In this document: positions 53,155-63,506 of the stretch, piece after piece | Layout: every line of letters begins with the position of its first letter | Position numbering within the stretch: the stretch's first letter is position 1 | Origin: Desulfurispirillum indicum S5 | Lineage (GTDB): Bacteria; Chrysiogenota; Chrysiogenetes; Chrysiogenales; Chrysiogenaceae | Assembly: GCF_000177635.2 (NCBI RefSeq) | Contig: NC_014836.1 | Coordinates: 2,712,001-2,776,000 of the forward strand | Reading direction: 5' to 3' | DNA: 64,000 nucleotides | Made by a program: the position numbers and the translations under genes | The notes under the pieces: generated by a model | What the model was told of the DNA's origin: nothing | What the model saw: only the letters and a program-made list of their open reading frames with translations | The model's database searches: none

Positions 53155-54342
53155 ATGGATTTTCTGCAATCGCTGACCACCATAGCGTCCATCACTCCCA
53201 ATCGCCCCTGGGGGCTGGATGTTCCCAACTACTTCTGGTTTACGGGCAGCAGCGCGGCGGCCTTTATCATCTCCAGCTTTGCCCATGTTTTCGGCATGCG
53301 CAAATACAAGCCCATTGCGGGATTCTCCCTGCTGCTGGCGTTTGTGCTGCTGGCGGCGGCGCCCTTCAACCTCATCGACGACCTGCGCCAGCCGGGCCGT
53401 ATCCTCAACTTCTTCGCCTACGGCTGGGAGAATTTCCTCACTTCGCCCATGAAGTGGGGGGTGCTGCTGTTGCTGGCGTATCCGCTGCTGATTCTCTTCG
53501 AGGCTCTGGTGCTCTACCGTCCCTTCTTTGTCCGCCAGGCCGAGTCGGCCCGCAGCGCCTTTGCCGGTCGCTGGTTCCGCATGATGGCCCTGGGGAATAT
53601 GCGCACCGATGAAGCGTCCCTGGCCCGCGATGAAAGACGCGGCCTCATTCTGGGTATCATCGGTATCCCTCTGGCCCTCAGCGTCCACGGTTACACGGGC
53701 TACATCCTGGGTGTGGTGCACGCCAACCCGCTGTGGAGCACTCCCCTCATGCCCATTCTCTTCCTGGCCTCGGCCATGGTTTCCGGCACTGGTCTGCTCA
53801 TCATTCTGCTGCCTCTGGTGCAGAAATTCTTCACCCCCATGGGCCGCGTCGATGGCGACATGATGCGCGAGCTGGCGCGTCTGCTGGGCTGGTTTATCAT
53901 CATCGACCTGGTGATCCGCTTTTTCTGGCTCACCTTCGCCATGCCCTTTGCCGGTGAGGAGCGCTTTGTGCTGCAGGCCTTCTTCCAGCATCACTTCTTC
54001 GATGTCGTGTACATCGAATACCTGCTCTGCCTGTTCGTCCCCCTGGCCATCGCCTTCAGCCCCCTGGCAAGGCGCACGGGCTGGGTCTTTGCCGCCGGCC
54101 TCATCGCCGCTGTCGGCGTGTGGCTCTTTCGCTGGAATACGGTTATCGGTGGCCAGACCATTGGCCGCACGGCCACGGGTTTTCTGGAGTACAGCCCCCA
54201 CTGGTTCGGCCAGGGCAGCATAACTGCCGTCATGGCCAACTGGGGTGTTTTTATCGCCCTGCTCGCCCTGGTGATGGTGCTCTTCCCCTGGGACAAGGAG
54301 ATGGCGGTACACTATAAAGGAGGAAGTCATGGAGAAAAATAG
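53155..54342 (+). CDS. ttrC: TtrC-type NrfD/PsrC membrane subunit
   Basis: 395 residues with about nine or ten hydrophobic helices. The N-terminal GLDVPNYFWFTGSSAAAF and the downstream LNFFAYGWENFLTSPMKWG are typical of the TtrC branch of the NrfD superfamily. It oxidises quinol at the membrane and passes electrons to TtrB. The gene lies eight bases after ttrB and overlaps ttrA by 14 bases. Confidence 0.87.
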   Translation: MDFLQSLTTIASITPNRPWGLDVPNYFWFTGSSAAAFIISSFAHVFGMRKYKPIAGFSLLLAFVLLAAAPFNLIDDLRQPGRILNFFAYGWENFLTSPMKWGVLLLLAYPLLILFEALVLYRPFFVRQAESARSAFAGRWFRMMALGNMRTDEASLARDERRGLILGIIGIPLALSVHGYTGYILGVVHANPLWSTPLMPILFLASAMVSGTGLLIILLPLVQKFFTPMGRVDGDMMRELARLLGWFIIIDLVIRFFWLTFAMPFAGEERFVLQAFFQHHFFDVVYIEYLLCLFVPLAIAFSPLARRTGWVFAAGLIAAVGVWLFRWNTVIGGQTIGRTATGFLEYSPHWFGQGSITAVMANWGVFIALLALVMVLFPWDKEMAVHYKGGSHGEK

Positions 54343-57300
54343 ACGTCAATTTCTGCTGGGCACTGCCGCGGTGGCGGGCCTGGGCGCGGTGGCCGGCTAC
54401 AGCGAAACCCTCAGTTCCGTGGTGACCCTTGGCGACAAGGGCGAGCGCATGGCCGACCCGGTCTATGGTCAGGCGGAAGAGCCGGAATTCACCATAGACA
54501 GCGACGGCAAGGCGCAGCCCAACCCCCGCTATCGTGTGGCTGCTTCGGTGTGTAATGGCTGTACGACCCACTGTGGCGTGCGGGTGAAAATAGACCGCGA
54601 GACCAATCAGGTGGTGCGCGTCAGCGGCAACCCCTACAACCTGCTTTCCAGCGATCCATGGCTGCCCTACCAGACGCCCCTTGGCGAGAGCTTCACCCGC
54701 ACTTCCGGCTTTCAGGAGCAGGGGAATGCCAACCGCTCCACTGCCTGCGCGCGGGGCAATATGGTCTTTGACAAGCTCAATGACCCCTTCCGGGTACTGC
54801 GCCCTCTCAAGCGGGTGGGCAAGCGCGGAGAAGACAAGTGGGAGCCCATCAGCGTCGAACAGCTGATGCGGGAAATCGTGGAGGGGGGAGACCTCTTTGG
54901 CGAAGGGCATGTGGATGGCCTGCGCGCTCTTCGCGATATCGAAACGCCCATCGACGCGGGAAATCCGGAGATGGGGCCCAAAGCAAACCAGCTGGCCATT
55001 TTCGGTACCGGCGATGAGGGGCGTCAGGCCTTTATCGTTCAGCGCTTTGCCCAGTCCTTCGGCACTCCAAACTTCTTTGGGCACACTTCCATCTGCGGTC
55101 TGTCCATGCGCGCCGGCGAGGCGGCTTTTCTTTCCGGACTGGGGGCTGATCCCCACCTGAAGCCCGATTTTGAAGAGTGCGAATTTCTGCTGACTATCGG
55201 CACGTCGCCTGCCCAGGCAGGCAATCCGTTCAAGCGCCAGGCCAAGCTTCTGGCCCGCGCCCGCAGCGACAAGAATCTGAAGTATGTGGTGGTGGGGCCC
55301 ATGCTCACCAACTGCGACAGCATTGCCTGCGGTGAGCGCTCACGGTGGCTGCCCATCAAGCCCGGCGAGGATCTGGCCCTGGTCATGGGGATGATTCGCT
55401 GGATTGTGGAGAACGATCGCCACAACGCCCACTACCTCGGCATTCCCTCCCAGCAGGCCATGCAGGCGGCAGGGGAACCAAGCTTTACCAATGCCTCCCA
55501 CCTTGTGGTACAGAGTGGTGAGCGCCAGGGGCATATTCTGAAAGACGGCGATGATGCCCTGGTGATAGATGAACGCGATGGGGCTCTCAAAAAGGCTTCC
55601 GAAGTTCTGCAGGCCCGCCTGGAAGTTGACGGCGAAGTGCAGTGGCAGGGCCACCGCTATCAGGTGAAAAGCGCCTTCACTCTCATGAAGGAAGCGGCCC
55701 AGGAGCATACTCTGGAAGAGTATTCGCGCTTCTGCGGTGTGCCGGTGAACGATATTATCGACCTGGCCCGCGAATTCACCAGCCATGGTCGCAAAGCGGC
55801 CATCGACTGCCACGGTGGCACCATGCACACCACTGGTTACTACACCACCTACGCCATCATGATGCTGGGCGCGCTCATCGGAAACCTCAACTACCGTGGT
55901 GGCATGAGTGTGGGCGGCGGCAAGTTCCGCGATTTCAATGGCGCGGCCTACAACCTGGTCGGCTATGCCGGCAAGGTGCAGCCTCGCGGCTACCGCGCCG
56001 ACCGCGCCCGTCGTGCCTACGAAAACACCAAGGAGTACCGCGATCGCGTGGCTGCGGGTCAGAACCCCTATCCGGCGCGGGATACCTGGTATCCCTTTGC
56101 CCGTGCCCTGGAGTCGGAGGTGATCGTCTCCAGCATCAAGGAGTACCCCTACAAGCTCAAGGCCCTCATCAGCTGGAATGCCAACTTCATCTATGGCCAG
56201 TCGGGTATTGAGCACCTGCTGGACGACCTGAAAGATCCCCAGCGCAGCATTCCCCTGATCATCGCCATTGATCCCTTTATCAATGAATCGAGCCGCTATG
56301 CCGACTATATTATTCCCGACGCGGTGCTCTATGAAACCTGGGGGGTCGTGCGCCCCTGGAATGGTTACCTGACCCGCGCCAACAACTTCCGCTACCCGGT
56401 GCTCCCCGCGCCCCAGGAGCGCTTTGCCAATGGCGAACCCATCACCATGGACAGTTTTGTGATTGAGCTTGGCAAGTACATGGGACTGCCGGGCTTTGGT
56501 CCAGGCGCCATCAATGGCACCGATGGGAAGAAGTACGCCATGGATCGTCCAGAAGACTTCTACCTGCGCGCTTTCGAAAACGTGGCCCTGGATGGGCAAC
56601 CTGTGCCTGACATCAGTGACGAGGAAATCAGGCTGGCAGGGCTCGAGGGGTATGTTGACACCCTGAAGCGCGTCAACGGCGAGAACTGGCGCAAGGTGGC
56701 CTACTGCATGGCGCGGGGCGGGCGCTACGACGGCAAGGAGCGCGCCTATAACGGAGCCGTGCTCGGCCAGACCTACAAACAGCCCATCAGTGTCTATAGC
56801 GAACAGGTGGGCAACCACCGCAACAGCCTCACGGGAGAAAAATTCAGCGGCGTCCCCCGCTACTTCCCCCAGAGCTATACCGATGGCACCCCCCTGAGCA
56901 GCAGCTTCGACCCACAGAAGTTTTCGCTGCGCGCCTTCAGCTATAAGTCCAGCGTACTCTCCCAGGCAGTGGCCGCCAGCGACGCCATCACTCAGCTGCG
57001 GTACACCACCTATGTGGATCTCAACCCCGCCACCGCCAGAAAACTTGGCCTGCAGCACGGCGACGAGGTTGAAGTGCAATCTCCCGCTGCCGCTATCCGT
57101 GGTCTGTTGCGCCTGCGCCAGGGAGTGCATCCCGAAGCCGTGGCCATTGAACACGGAGCCGGCAGGGAGGGAGAAGGCGCCATCACCCTGACAGTTGGCG
57201 GACAGACCCTCAAGGGACGCATCAACCGCAAGAGTGGCCTGAATATCAACAAGCTTGGCCTGACCGACCAGAGCCGTGACGGCGTGGCAACCCTGGCCGA

Positions 57301-57358
57301 TATCGTGGTGGGCTCCAACGCTCGCCAGGCCATCCCGGTACGAGTGAGCAGGGTATAG
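54329..57358 (+). CDS. ttrA: TtrA-type molybdopterin catalytic subunit (tetrathionate/selenate/arsenate reductase group)
   Basis: 1009 residues (Salmonella TtrA is 1020). Tat signal NRRQFLLGTAAVAG. The 4Fe-4S site is CNGCTTHCGVRVKID with a later Cys in STACARGN. TSICGLSMRAG contains the likely molybdenum Cys ligand. The C-terminal molydopterin-dinucleotide domain starts near TYVDLNPATARKLGLQHGDE. This DMSO-reductase-family branch contains TtrA, ArrA and SrdA. Substrate could be tetrathionate, selenate or a related oxyanion and cannot be fixed from sequence. A partial LR repeat begins about seven bases after the stop. A two-component system follows. Confidence 0.88.
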   Translation: MEKNRRQFLLGTAAVAGLGAVAGYSETLSSVVTLGDKGERMADPVYGQAEEPEFTIDSDGKAQPNPRYRVAASVCNGCTTHCGVRVKIDRETNQVVRVSGNPYNLLSSDPWLPYQTPLGESFTRTSGFQEQGNANRSTACARGNMVFDKLNDPFRVLRPLKRVGKRGEDKWEPISVEQLMREIVEGGDLFGEGHVDGLRALRDIETPIDAGNPEMGPKANQLAIFGTGDEGRQAFIVQRFAQSFGTPNFFGHTSICGLSMRAGEAAFLSGLGADPHLKPDFEECEFLLTIGTSPAQAGNPFKRQAKLLARARSDKNLKYVVVGPMLTNCDSIACGERSRWLPIKPGEDLALVMGMIRWIVENDRHNAHYLGIPSQQAMQAAGEPSFTNASHLVVQSGERQGHILKDGDDALVIDERDGALKKASEVLQARLEVDGEVQWQGHRYQVKSAFTLMKEAAQEHTLEEYSRFCGVPVNDIIDLAREFTSHGRKAAIDCHGGTMHTTGYYTTYAIMMLGALIGNLNYRGGMSVGGGKFRDFNGAAYNLVGYAGKVQPRGYRADRARRAYENTKEYRDRVAAGQNPYPARDTWYPFARALESEVIVSSIKEYPYKLKALISWNANFIYGQSGIEHLLDDLKDPQRSIPLIIAIDPFINESSRYADYIIPDAVLYETWGVVRPWNGYLTRANNFRYPVLPAPQERFANGEPITMDSFVIELGKYMGLPGFGPGAINGTDGKKYAMDRPEDFYLRAFENVALDGQPVPDISDEEIRLAGLEGYVDTLKRVNGENWRKVAYCMARGGRYDGKERAYNGAVLGQTYKQPISVYSEQVGNHRNSLTGEKFSGVPRYFPQSYTDGTPLSSSFDPQKFSLRAFSYKSSVLSQAVAASDAITQLRYTTYVDLNPATARKLGLQHGDEVEVQSPAAAIRGLLRLRQGVHPEAVAIEHGAGREGEGAITLTVGGQTLKGRINRKSGLNINKLGLTDQSRDGVATLADIVVGSNARQAIPVRVSRV

Positions 57359-57364
57359 TATAGT

Positions 57365-57958
57365 TCCCAGCCTATGCCATGCTGGAATGGCAGAATGATT
57401 CTGCACAGACGGCATTGCTTAACATTACCCTCACCTTGTTTATGAGTTTCTTTTGCCACTTTTGACTCGCCAAAAGTGGCGCAAAAGCGACCCCCAGTGC
57501 TGTCCTTATCAGCCATCCGCTTGCCTGGAACTGTGGACCGCAAACAACCGCCCTCCGTGGCTTTTGGTTTGCGGTTGCCGCCCTCGTGGCGTCAACCCTG
57601 TGGGTCCATAGCGTTCCAGTCGGCGCGTCCTGGCTGGGCCAGCACACGGGGGAGAGGCAGAGGAAAGCCGTTCCCCCCTGAGCCCGTCCGGTGAGTGCGA
57701 CGCCTGGCTGGTAAGACCCGAACGGGACACCTGCAGGAAGCAGGTGGTCCGGCAGCACTGCAGGGACGCAGTGGTCAGGCAACGCAAAGAGGCCCAGGTG
57801 CAAGGCGCGGGCGAAGAGAGGAGTGAGGCGTACTCCCTGTACGTCGCAGTGACGAGCGATGCCCTGCAACGCAGCAGATGGGCCTCTTTGAGCAGCCTGC
57901 TGCCGGATCTCCAGAACAGGCGAGCAATGAGCCGGATAAACGGGCGTTCGGGGGGAGG
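57365..57958 (-). repeat. LR repeat, inverted, truncated at both ends
   Basis: Reverse-oriented LR copy, beginning just after the ttrA stop. It keeps the GCCACTTTT/AAAAGTGGC hairpin and an internal SPR (57776-57899, arms CAAAGAGGCCC/GGGCCTCTTTG). It lacks both the GGTGCGAAACTT end and the GTCCTTTTT hairpin. It fills the 57359-58029 gap; the last 70 bases would carry the promoter of the response regulator. Confidence 0.8.
57776..57899 (+). repeat. SPR foldback repeat inside LR
   Basis: 124 bp, from CAGGCAACGC to AGCAGCCTG, same arm variant as the SPR at 9185-9308. Confidence 0.75.
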
Positions 57959-58029
57959 GGGGAAGACTTCAGTTATTCAAAAGCTTTTTCCTTCCTGCCG
58001 GTTTTCCATTATGCTCAGGGGTGCATGTT

Positions 58030-58767
58030 ATGAAGTACTTCATCGAGGATGCCCCTGTGCCAATGAGCATTTCCGCCCGTGAGGTTCTGCGCAGCCAGCT
58101 GCTCCTGTTTGCCGAGGACGATGACCAGACCCGCCAGATGTTTCTGCCGTATTTTTCTGCCATCTTTCAGAGGGTGCTTGAGGCACAGAACGGCATTGAG
58201 GCTCTGGAAATGTACCAGATTCACCAGCCACCCGTGATGGTGGTGGATATTGATATGCCCTACCTGAGCGGCCTTGAACTGATCAAAAAACTGCGGCGCG
58301 AAAATGCAAACTGCCGCATTATCATCACCAGCGCCTACACGGATCAACGTTACCTGCTGGACGCGGTGGAGCTTGACATCAGCCGCTATCTGGTGAAACC
58401 CATATTCAAAAATGACCTGGATACGGCCCTGGAGAAGGTTGCCCGCGAAATTGCCGGTGAGCTGGGGAAGGCCATCGGTTTTGGCGATGGCTGGCAGTAT
58501 GATCCCGCCACCCGCTGCCTGTCCCTTCAGGGCACGATTATCGACCTGACACCCCTGGAGCGGCAGCTTCTGCATCTGCTGATTACCAACAGCCACCGGG
58601 TGGTGGAATACGCGGAAATCGAGAACCGGGTATGGTGTGACCGCGACATGACCCACGACGCGCTGAAAAGTGTCGTTCGGGAGTTGCGGCGCAAGGTGGG
58701 GCGATCCTGCATCCTGAATGTTTCGGGGACGGGTTACCGCTTTTGCGATAACGGAGGAACGTCATGA
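58030..58767 (+). CDS. OmpR-type response regulator
   Basis: 245 residues from the ATG at MKYFIEDAPVPM; a GTG at 58021 or the ATG of MSISAREV are alternatives. The receiver domain (about 20-140) has FAEDDDQTR, the Asp in VMVVDIDMPYLSG and Lys in YLVKPIFKND. The C-terminal DNA-binding winged helix (about 155-243) has IDLTPLERQLLHLLI and ending SGTGYRFCDN. The next gene, a histidine kinase, overlaps by four bases. It lies downstream of ttrBCA and may control it. Known TtrR is a LuxR/FixJ-type regulator, so this would be a different control protein. Confidence 0.9.
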   Translation: MKYFIEDAPVPMSISAREVLRSQLLLFAEDDDQTRQMFLPYFSAIFQRVLEAQNGIEALEMYQIHQPPVMVVDIDMPYLSGLELIKKLRRENANCRIIITSAYTDQRYLLDAVELDISRYLVKPIFKNDLDTALEKVAREIAGELGKAIGFGDGWQYDPATRCLSLQGTIIDLTPLERQLLHLLITNSHRVVEYAEIENRVWCDRDMTHDALKSVVRELRRKVGRSCILNVSGTGYRFCDNGGTS

Positions 58768-60320
58768 CCAAAGCGCTGTCAACACGCCAGACTCTGGTGC
58801 TTCTGGTGGCTGGCATGGCACTGCTGGCAGGAACAGGCTCCATGGCCTGGGTGATGATGGACCCCTGCCCATTTCTGCTCAGCTCCTCTGTCATTCGTCT
58901 GATGGCCTGCCTGATCGCGGTGGCTATCTATCTTCGCTGGCGCGACTGGCGCATCCTGCCCCTGGCTCTCATGTTCTTCCTGATGGCCTTGCGCCAGATG
59001 TTCACACTCCTGAGCAGCACCTACGGCATTGACGAGCCCTGGCTGGTGCAGACCCTGGTGGAAGGGCCGGGCTTTGTGGTTACGGTGCTGGCTTTGCTGG
59101 GGGTGCTCTACCTGTGGCGGGTCTTTGCCAATCAGGCCAGGGCCGAAGCGGCGGAAGCCGAGGCTGCTCACAGGCGCCGCCAGATCCATCAGATTCTCGA
59201 CTCCCAACCTTCCCTGGTTGCCCTGGCCGACAGTTCCACGGTGCTGAGCGCCAATCGCAGTCTGCTGGATTTCATGGGGAGCGACTCCCTGGAAGCACTG
59301 GGGACTTCGGTGCAGTGGCTGCGGGATCTGTTTGAAAAGGGGGGAGCGCTGGAGCCGGGACAGAGCTGGGGCGACTTTTTAATCCCGTTTCGTCAGAAAG
59401 ATATTGCCGAAGTGCGTTTGCACCTGGCGGAGAAGGACGGACAGCCACGGGTTTTCCTGGCCCGCCTCTGCCCCTTTGCCGACTCCACAGAGGAGATTAT
59501 TGTCACCCTCTTTGATATTACCGCCCTGGAAGCCTATCAGCGTGAGCTGGAACAGCGCCACACGGAGCAGCGCCATATGCTGGTTCAGCAGTCCCGACTG
59601 GCGGCGCTGGGAGAGATGACGGGTGTCATTGCCCACCAGTGGAAGCAGCCCTTGAACACCATCAACTGGCAGGTGCAGATGCTGCAGGAGCAGGTCGCGG
59701 AGCTGGACAATCCCCGCACCGCCGCGGCCAGCCAGTCGCTGCAGTCCATCCTGGGCCAGCTGGACTTTATGAACCGCACCATCACCAATTTCCGCAACTT
59801 CTTTCATCCCCAGGCGCAAGCCACCCGTTTCAACGTCTGCCAGGCGGTGAATCAGGTCATGGAGCTGCTGCAGGTGGAATTCCGCAAACACCATATCCAC
59901 TTTGACCTGCAATGCGACGTGGAGGGACTCAATGTGTGGGGCCGCATGAATGAGTTTCAGCAGGCTGTCCTGAATATCGTGGTCAACAGCCGGGATGCCA
60001 TCACGGCTCTGCGACGCAAACGCATTGAGGCCGATGGCGCCAAGGCGGGCAGGTTTGATGGAGTGATCCGGATTACCTGCCGGCACCCTGATGAGATGCT
60101 GGAAATGACCATCACCGATAACGGCGGCGGCGTCAGCGCCGAGATACTGCCCCGTGTTTTCGAACGCTTTGTCAGCGCCAGACAGGATGAGGATGGAAGC
60201 GGCATCGGTCTGTATGTCGCAAAGATTATCATTGAGGAGCATATGGGCGGCTCCATCTGCCTGGAAAATGGAGAAACCGGCGCGGTGGTAAGCCTCCGGA
60301 TTCCCGTCAGCCAGAACTGA
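58764..60320 (+). CDS. Membrane-bound PAS histidine kinase
   Basis: 518 residues. Four hydrophobic segments (about 10-30, 38-55, 63-85, 95-118) without a large periplasmic loop are followed by a short coiled coil and a PAS domain (about 138-265). The kinase has LAALGEMTGVIAHQWKQPLN, the His-Gln-Trp type of phospho-His box, NIVVNSRDAITAL (N-box) and GSGIGLYVAKIIIEEHMGG. Partner of the OmpR-type regulator by overlap. The membrane-embedded sensor suggests that it senses a membrane or redox signal, perhaps the same acceptor as TtrBCA; this is inference. Confidence 0.9.
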   Translation: MTKALSTRQTLVLLVAGMALLAGTGSMAWVMMDPCPFLLSSSVIRLMACLIAVAIYLRWRDWRILPLALMFFLMALRQMFTLLSSTYGIDEPWLVQTLVEGPGFVVTVLALLGVLYLWRVFANQARAEAAEAEAAHRRRQIHQILDSQPSLVALADSSTVLSANRSLLDFMGSDSLEALGTSVQWLRDLFEKGGALEPGQSWGDFLIPFRQKDIAEVRLHLAEKDGQPRVFLARLCPFADSTEEIIVTLFDITALEAYQRELEQRHTEQRHMLVQQSRLAALGEMTGVIAHQWKQPLNTINWQVQMLQEQVAELDNPRTAAASQSLQSILGQLDFMNRTITNFRNFFHPQAQATRFNVCQAVNQVMELLQVEFRKHHIHFDLQCDVEGLNVWGRMNEFQQAVLNIVVNSRDAITALRRKRIEADGAKAGRFDGVIRITCRHPDEMLEMTITDNGGGVSAEILPRVFERFVSARQDEDGSGIGLYVAKIIIEEHMGGSICLENGETGAVVSLRIPVSQN

Positions 60321-60341: not shown

Positions 60342-61622
60342 CTATGGCTTCACCGAGACCAGTCCGCGAGAAGCGGTTTTTCCGTCAAAAAAGCTGACCA
60401 GATCGACCAGTTCCCCAGCTTCATTCAAGAGCCGCAGAGCCACCTGGGCCACTTTTTCATTGGCATTGCGGGTACTGTCCCAGGTCTGCTCATGGGTCTG
60501 GATGGTGTGCATGATCTCCTGGGTCATGCCGGCCATGCTGAGGATTTCCTGCTCCATGGAGCCAATAGTGGCGGTGGTCTCCCGGGCTTCCTGGGAGATG
60601 ACCACAGTGTGTTCGCGGCTCTGGGTAGCCTGCTCAATGGCGTCGGCGCAGCGCAGGCGCATTTCGCTGGAGAGAGTGTCGATCTCCTTGGCGGTCATCA
60701 TGGTCATTTCGGCCAGTTTGCGCACTTCGTCTGCCACCACCGAGAAGCTTCTGCCGTTTTCTCCGGCCCGTGCCGCTTCAATGGCGGCGTTGAGAGCCAG
60801 CAGGTTGGTCTGGTCGGCAACTTCGTGAATGGAGCGGATAAAGTTGCCGATCCGGTTGGAACTGTCTTCAAGCTTTGCCATCAGATGGGTCAGACGGTCC
60901 AGTGACTGGGTAATGGTACCCATGCGCTCAATGGTATCGCGTACCTGGGCGGCTCCGCGCAGGGTAATGTCTTTCATCTGCTGAGCTTCCTGCTCCGCAT
61001 TGTGCAGCTTTGCGCTGATATGCTCCATCAGCTTCACCAGGCTCTCGTTACTGTTGAAGAGTTCCTGACTGGAGCCATCCAGCTCACGGGCACTGGTGCT
61101 GATGATATCGGTGGACTGGCGCACTTTGCCAGTTACATCCCGCAGGCTGCTCAACAGCCGATCCACGGCATTGCCCAGCACATCACGGGGGCCGCGGGAC
61201 AGCGCTTCCTGCTCCAGGTTACCCTCGCTGGCCTGCTCCAGGGTTCTCGCCTTGGCGTCCAGGTCCGCCAGAAAGCGGTTAAAGGCGCTGGCCACATCGC
61301 CTATCTCGGTTCCCCGTTCAACTTCCACCCGCTGGGTCAGATCACCGCTGCCGGCAATGCTGGTGACGGTGGAAATGGTATCCACCCAGCTCATGCGCGC
61401 GCCATGCTCACTGACGTTCAGGCCCACCTCTTCATCTTCAGGGGAGGCCCGCACCATGCCCGTTTCCAGCAAAGTGAACCCTGCCTGCATGATAAACACC
61501 AGCGCTGTGGCAATCAGGATCCACAGCATATCTATATTCGCCTGGGTCACCAGATCTTCCGGCACTCCCCACGCACTCCCCGTAAACGCAAGCACACCCA
61601 TGACAACTGGTACGACTTTCAC
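60342..61622 (-). CDS. Chemoreceptor-like signalling protein carrying remnants of an ammonium transporter
   Basis: 426 residues from a GTG with GGGAG upstream. Residues 1-20 are a signal-like stretch. Residues 28-59 ([19 protein letters not shown], then LLETGMVRA) are the first membrane helix of an Amt/MEP ammonium transporter. Directly after it [15 protein letters not shown] matches the cytoplasmic tail of Amt proteins. The roughly 350 residues between, which form the channel, are absent. A HAMP-like segment and the chemoreceptor hairpin follow, with [20 protein letters not shown] and [13 protein letters not shown]. No ligand domain remains. It may signal by dimerising on the single helix or be non-functional; the intact frame suggests it is still made. 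Confidence 0.85.
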
Positions 61623-62837: not shown

Positions 62838-63506
62838 GTATTGATTTTGCATGCTTGACTCATCTGGTATTTCTCTTTTCGTTTGTGGATATTGTCCTTT
62901 TTGACCGCGCAAAAAGGACGCAAAAACGCGCCCCCCGAACGCCCGTTTTTTCCGGCTCGTTTGCTCGCCTGTTCTGGAGATCCGGCAGCAGGCTGCTCAA
63001 AGAGGCCCATCTGCTGCGTTGCCGGGCACACGGGGGAACTGTCTGCTTCTGCCTCTCCCCCGTGTGCTGGTCCAGCCAGGGCGCGCCGACTGTCAGGCTG
63101 CTGAAAAGCCCTCATCTGCGGCGTTGCTCACAAGTGCTCGTCGCTGCGACGTACAGGAAGTACGCCTCACTCCTCACCTTGCTTGCGCCTTGCACCTGAG
63201 AACTTTTCAATTGCCTGCATAACGCTATGGACCCGCAGGGTTGCCGCCATGACGGCGGCAACCGCAAACCTAAAGCCACGGAGGGCGGTTGTTTGCGGTC
63301 CCCAGTTCCAGGCAAGCGGGCGGCTGAAAAGGACAGCACTGGGGGGCGCTTCCCAGCCACTTTTGGCGACCCAAAAGTGGCAAAAGAAACTCATAAACAG
63401 GGTGAGGGCAATGTTAAGCGACGCAGTCTGTGCAGAACCATTTCTGCCATTAGAACATAGCATCAGGGTCAGCGCAGACAATCGCCGCGGGGTGCGAAAG
63501 TTCAGT
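62838..63506 (+). repeat. LR repeat with internal deletion and an inserted SPR
   Basis: Starts like the 9035 copy and has both end hairpins (62894-62919 and 63356-63381). The internal LR-type SPR is cut off after GTTGCCGGGCA, and the following 150 bases of the 9035 copy are missing. An extra, free-standing type SPR sits at 63094-63217. It covers the whole gap between gloB and pcm. No gene is seen. Confidence 0.8.
63094..63217 (-). repeat. SPR foldback repeat inserted into LR
   Basis: 124 bp from CAGGCTGCTG to AATTGCCTG. Other LR copies read GCCGACTGGAACGC at this point; here the element replaces the GG between GACT and AACGC, with two and three extra bases. This defines the ends of the element. 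Confidence 0.85.

Follow-up and report, generated by a model that had tools for sequence, protein, structure and literature searches.

A chemoreceptor-like gene of Desulfurispirillum indicum S5 that probably lost its ammonium transporter channel through an in-frame deletion

A gene on the minus strand at 60342-61622 of the 64,000-nucleotide stretch of Desulfurispirillum indicum S5 DNA analysed here (the window; NC_014836.1, positions 2,712,001 to 2,776,000) raises the question of how a chemoreceptor came to carry the two ends of an ammonium transporter (Amt) with nothing of the channel between them. A preliminary description, made from the letters alone, had proposed that an Amt-like N-terminal helix is joined directly to the Amt cytoplasmic tail, that HAMP and chemoreceptor domains follow, and that a frame-preserving deletion in a full-length transporter-sensor produced this arrangement. 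The comparisons set out below uphold that description in its several parts, and make it probable that a single in-frame deletion from a full-length Amt-HAMP-MCP ancestor gave rise to a one-helix member of receptor arrays that does not sense ammonium.

The gene has a GTG start and encodes a protein of 426 amino acids, in the order signal or leader peptide, Amt helix 1, acidic Amt cytoplasmic tail, HAMP and MCP signalling domain; it is identified as a truncated Amt-HAMP-MCP gene by its open reading frame, its Pfam HAMP and MCPsignal matches and its placement within the Amt-HAMP-MCP clade. All of the following features lie on the minus strand. The putative signal peptide (residues 1-19, 61566..61622) is delimited by a hydropathy peak at residues 3-21 and by alignment, with cleavage predicted at SAWG|VP, a plausible signal peptidase I site. 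A hydrophobic leader also aligns in L012 and L033, two of the full-length proteins described below, and in most of the others, and the leader of Escherichia coli AmtB is cleaved (PMC10433425). Amt transmembrane helix 1 (residues 30-59, 61446..61535) is followed by the Amt cytoplasmic tail motif (residues 60-75, 61398..61445) and by a HAMP region (residues 76-133, 61224..61397), within which the Pfam match covers residues 88-121 (PF00672, E 2e-8, 34.9 bits against a cut-off of 25). An AlphaFold model, run without an alignment and used for helix limits only, places helices at residues 73-91 and 94-133 with low confidence (mean pLDDT 62.9). The MCP signalling domain (Pfam match 213-394, 60441..60986) is matched by PF00015 with E 5.4e-35 (121 bits against a cut-off of 34.6), so that both downstream domains stand above their Pfam cut-offs. 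With an intact hairpin tip, and with HAMP linking membrane to signalling domain, the protein has the features by which MCPs are recognised; in calling it a receptor, we infer its role. GC content by codon position resembles that of neighbouring genes, and a scan for consensus promoters and terminators gave nothing above chance.

The Amt remnant is short, and general profiles recover it weakly. Positions 1-28 of PF00909 match weakly (E 4.9e-4, 19.4 bits, below the curated cut-off of 23.2), and positions 1-29 of TIGR00836 match with E 4.7e-6. A dedicated profile built from 11 full-length Amt-HAMP-MCP proteins, with the window protein left out and E values scaled to a 2,619-protein proteome, matches both helix 1 (E 1.0e-17) and residues 59-78 of the tail (E 6.5e-10), and in a whole-Amt profile the matched positions 30 and 371 adjoin, with zero residues between. 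Judged by these profile matches, the similarity to Amt is not due to chance, and the direct joining of helix to tail stands as first described. Amt proteins have 11 helices, an external N-terminus and an internal C-terminus (PMC10433425), and form trimers (PMC10433425, PMC5764959). The window protein lacks helices 2-11, and falls outside the Amt/Mep/Rh family as defined by 11 helices, a channel and two pore histidines.

Full-length Amt-HAMP-MCP proteins of 744-766 amino acids were located by a contig scan and by searches of sampled genomes (L012, L033, L009/L015, L034, L035, L037, L039-L042), in keeping with the earlier expectation that complete Amt-signalling fusions exist. L012 comes from a metagenome-assembled genome labelled Epsilonproteobacteria, L009/L015 from a genome (G007) of the same phylum as D. 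indicum, and the remainder from Campylobacterota; a partial protein, L013, is labelled Desulfovibrio. The full-length proteins match PF00909 nearly end to end (E 1e-116 or better), keep the two pore histidines, and are colinear with the window protein on either side of the gap, including the leader before helix 1. The family is sporadic, G007 being the only one of about 50 same-phylum genomes to carry it among the matches listed, and no match was found in the two other genera of the family to which D. indicum belongs. None of these relatives has the short architecture, contrary to the case in which all relatives would be short, and no second short form was present among the matches listed for about 1,500 sampled genomes, searched with either the whole short protein or residues 1-146 as query. 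The short form is thus known from one genome. An early candidate for a second short form was set aside: L038, a 434-residue open frame, begins inside the Amt core and represents a frame-broken full-length gene in a draft genome. L036 is a plain MCP with no Amt parts, and matches on Vibrio plasmids turned out to be full-length Amt-HAMP-histidine kinase proteins. Phages gave no match, and IMG/VR contained no relative.

The direction of change was read from a maximum-likelihood tree built on the tail-HAMP-MCP portion and comprising the window protein, ten full-length members and plain MCPs. The tree places the window protein within the Amt-HAMP-MCP clade, set apart from plain MCPs with support 100/99, and pairs it with L012 (93/90); the protein therefore shares descent with the fusions while lacking their complete Amt sensor domain, and its nesting implies that the full-length form is the ancestral state, as the preliminary description had supposed. 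L012 is the sister of the window protein, not the ancestor itself, and the two are 47% identical over the shared part.

Alignment with L012 shows that residues 57-401 of that protein, exactly 345 residues or 1,035 bp, are missing from the window protein; the missing stretch comprises Amt helices 2-11 and the channel, and the frame is kept across it. The deletion can be placed between 61446 and 61445 or inside a shared 6 bp, and the junction itself, GTGCGGGCC (61446..61454, minus strand), was defined by comparison with the L012 borders. These are GTGCGGGCG on the left (ATG GTG CGG GCG|AAA) and CTGCGGGTG on the right (GCG CTG CGG GTG|AGT), and they share TGCGGG in the same codon phase, in agreement with a short repeat at the junction. 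Such a shared run occurs in 10 of 1,225 nearby in-phase border pairs (0.8%), which suggests, on these sequence grounds, a deletion between short TGCGGG-like repeats. The fit falls short of proof: conservation of the arginine codon at each border is explained at the protein level, and the junction alanine (GCC) is the left border residue rather than the conserved valine of the right border, so that a clean exchange at the repeat would call for either a mismatch or one additional change.

The proposed course of events would begin with a full-length Amt-HAMP-MCP receptor that sensed ammonium, from which, on the evidence of alignment and tree, a single in-frame loss of about 1,035 bp, with TGCGGG-like repeats as its probable end points, would have taken out helices 2-11. 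Helix 1, running from outside to inside, would thereby be fused straight to the cytoplasmic Amt tail, and because ten helices, an even number, were lost from an 11-helix protein with N-terminus out and C-terminus in, HAMP and the signalling hairpin should remain cytoplasmic. By analogy with known families, the product is predicted to have one helix, a cytoplasmic signalling half and no ammonium channel; it would be a membrane-anchored receptor devoid of an ammonium site or a periplasmic sensor domain. Most Amt trimer contacts presumably fall in the missing part, and removal of the trimeric core may leave the coiled coil free to form an ordinary receptor dimer. The short protein would then be produced, be dimeric like normal receptors, most likely join receptor arrays, and set or tune CheA activity while blind to ammonium. 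An ordinary Amt is encoded elsewhere in D. indicum (genome 98407-99543), so that the deletion did not leave the host without any Amt, and as the searches give about 27 further MCP-like places in its genome, the altered receptor would be one of many.

The main rival to this reading is that the gene was broken recently and is being lost, its open frame persisting for lack of time and its product being useless or unstable. This is the less expected outcome but a serious one. No input domain is left; the short form appears in no second genome among the matches listed; and helix 1 keeps 26 of the 30 L012 residues despite the loss of its Amt packing partners, as a recent event would leave it. At 0.81, the tip branch of the window protein also exceeds the 0.52 of its sister L012, which slightly favours relaxed constraint. 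The gene nevertheless runs through 426 codons with no stop or frameshift, the deletion preserves both frame and topology, the receptor tip has been left intact, and no excess of change is seen at conserved sites. Among 40 signalling-half columns that are invariant in ten relatives, the window protein departs at two, one of which is the junction residue, and other members depart at 0-6 such conserved columns. Identity to L012 is 87% in helix 1, 88% in the tail, 67% in HAMP and 41% in the MCP domain, compared with 80, 69, 55 and 39% between L012 and L033, both of which are full-length. The aligned sequences therefore give no sign of decay in the signalling half, although a recent event would look alike.

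Conservation of helix 1, tail and HAMP might also be expected if the remnant had acquired a new input, the helix-1/tail/HAMP unit now sensing a membrane or cytoplasmic cue (pH, temperature, proton-motive force) or a partner protein. Sensing by way of HAMP, of the membrane part or of cytoplasmic parts has precedent among chemoreceptors, which lends this idea some plausibility. It is unlikely, however, since no domain has been added, the locus offers no convincing partner gene, and the conservation equals that of the full-length relatives, with nothing pointing to a new use. Restriction to one genome would equally be seen if the gap were an assembly error or had arisen in laboratory culture, where short-repeat deletions are common. 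Against an assembly error, the genome (2,928,377 bases; PMC3368425) is finished, having been sequenced with 454 (108x) and Illumina (222x) using paired libraries and gap closure, and repeats of 6 bp would not be long enough to make an assembly collapse; an artefact of either kind is very improbable. The converse proposal, that the short architecture came first and insertion of an Amt core later gave the full-length forms, is scarcely credible, in that nothing was found in its favour, helix 1 and the tail represent both ends of a whole Amt, the same tail-HAMP block occurs in Amt fusions with kinase and GGDEF outputs, and the tree, in which the window protein is a nested tip of the full-length clade, already refutes it unless many unsampled short forms sit at its base.

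Derivation by deletion from a full-length Amt-HAMP-MCP receptor, the preferred reading, places the protein between known systems. It shares with the full-length fusions (L012, L033, L009 and others) a clade and the order leader, helix 1, tail, HAMP, MCP, at up to 47% identity over the shared part; those proteins retain the whole Amt, whereas the window protein is 345 residues shorter. Amt fusions to signalling modules are already known, as in Ks-Amt5, the ammonium sensor histidine kinase of Kuenenia stuttgartiensis, which likewise has an Amt part fused via the Amt tail to a cytoplasmic signalling module (PMC5764959); Ks-Amt5, however, has a full Amt trimer, senses ammonium and has a kinase output, in contrast to the channel-less window protein with its MCP output. 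Classical transmembrane MCPs resemble it in having a membrane anchor, HAMP and a helical hairpin with a conserved tip, but usually have two helices flanking a periplasmic ligand-binding domain, in place of which the window protein has one Amt-derived helix and no such domain. Within the open-access literature, the coverage of which is incomplete, no description of Amt-MCP fusions or their truncation was found, and a search on receptors lacking a ligand-binding domain, with most subscription journals outside coverage, returned no relevant paper.

A more tentative idea, held with somewhat less than even confidence, is that deletion of a transporter core could in one step make a functional one-helix chemoreceptor, and that the combination of even-numbered helix loss with in-phase repeats would offer a general route from transporter-fused sensors to ligand-free array members. 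Sensors fused to Amt combine a trimeric sensor with an output that is dimeric, and the case would show how a single step can remodel them while topology is preserved. As a natural sensor-deletion experiment, it allows the forms before and after to be compared residue by residue, and the short and full-length pair could be used to test receptor assembly and signalling once a trimeric transporter sensor has become one anchor helix.

Several observations concern the family and the locus more broadly. The Amt tail-HAMP block RVxxEDExxGLNxxEHGA couples Amt to at least four outputs, namely MCP (L012), histidine kinase (L028, Vibrio L057), GGDEF (L016) and PAS-GGDEF-EAL-like modules (L053, L056), and looks like a shared adaptor. 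In the window, 54329-60320 encodes a molybdopterin oxidoreductase, with a leader starting MEKNRRQFLLG, then a response regulator and a PAS histidine kinase, the gene for the latter being convergent with the truncated receptor gene and ending 22 bp from its 3' end. The block formed by regulator, kinase, truncated receptor gene and a glyoxalase II-like gene is flanked by inverted copies (57394-57927 and 62961-63442) of an intergenic, modular repeat some 530 bp long. About 40 copies occur across the genome, with 66 matching places and 87-95% identity, and the stretch 381-506 is missing from many of them.
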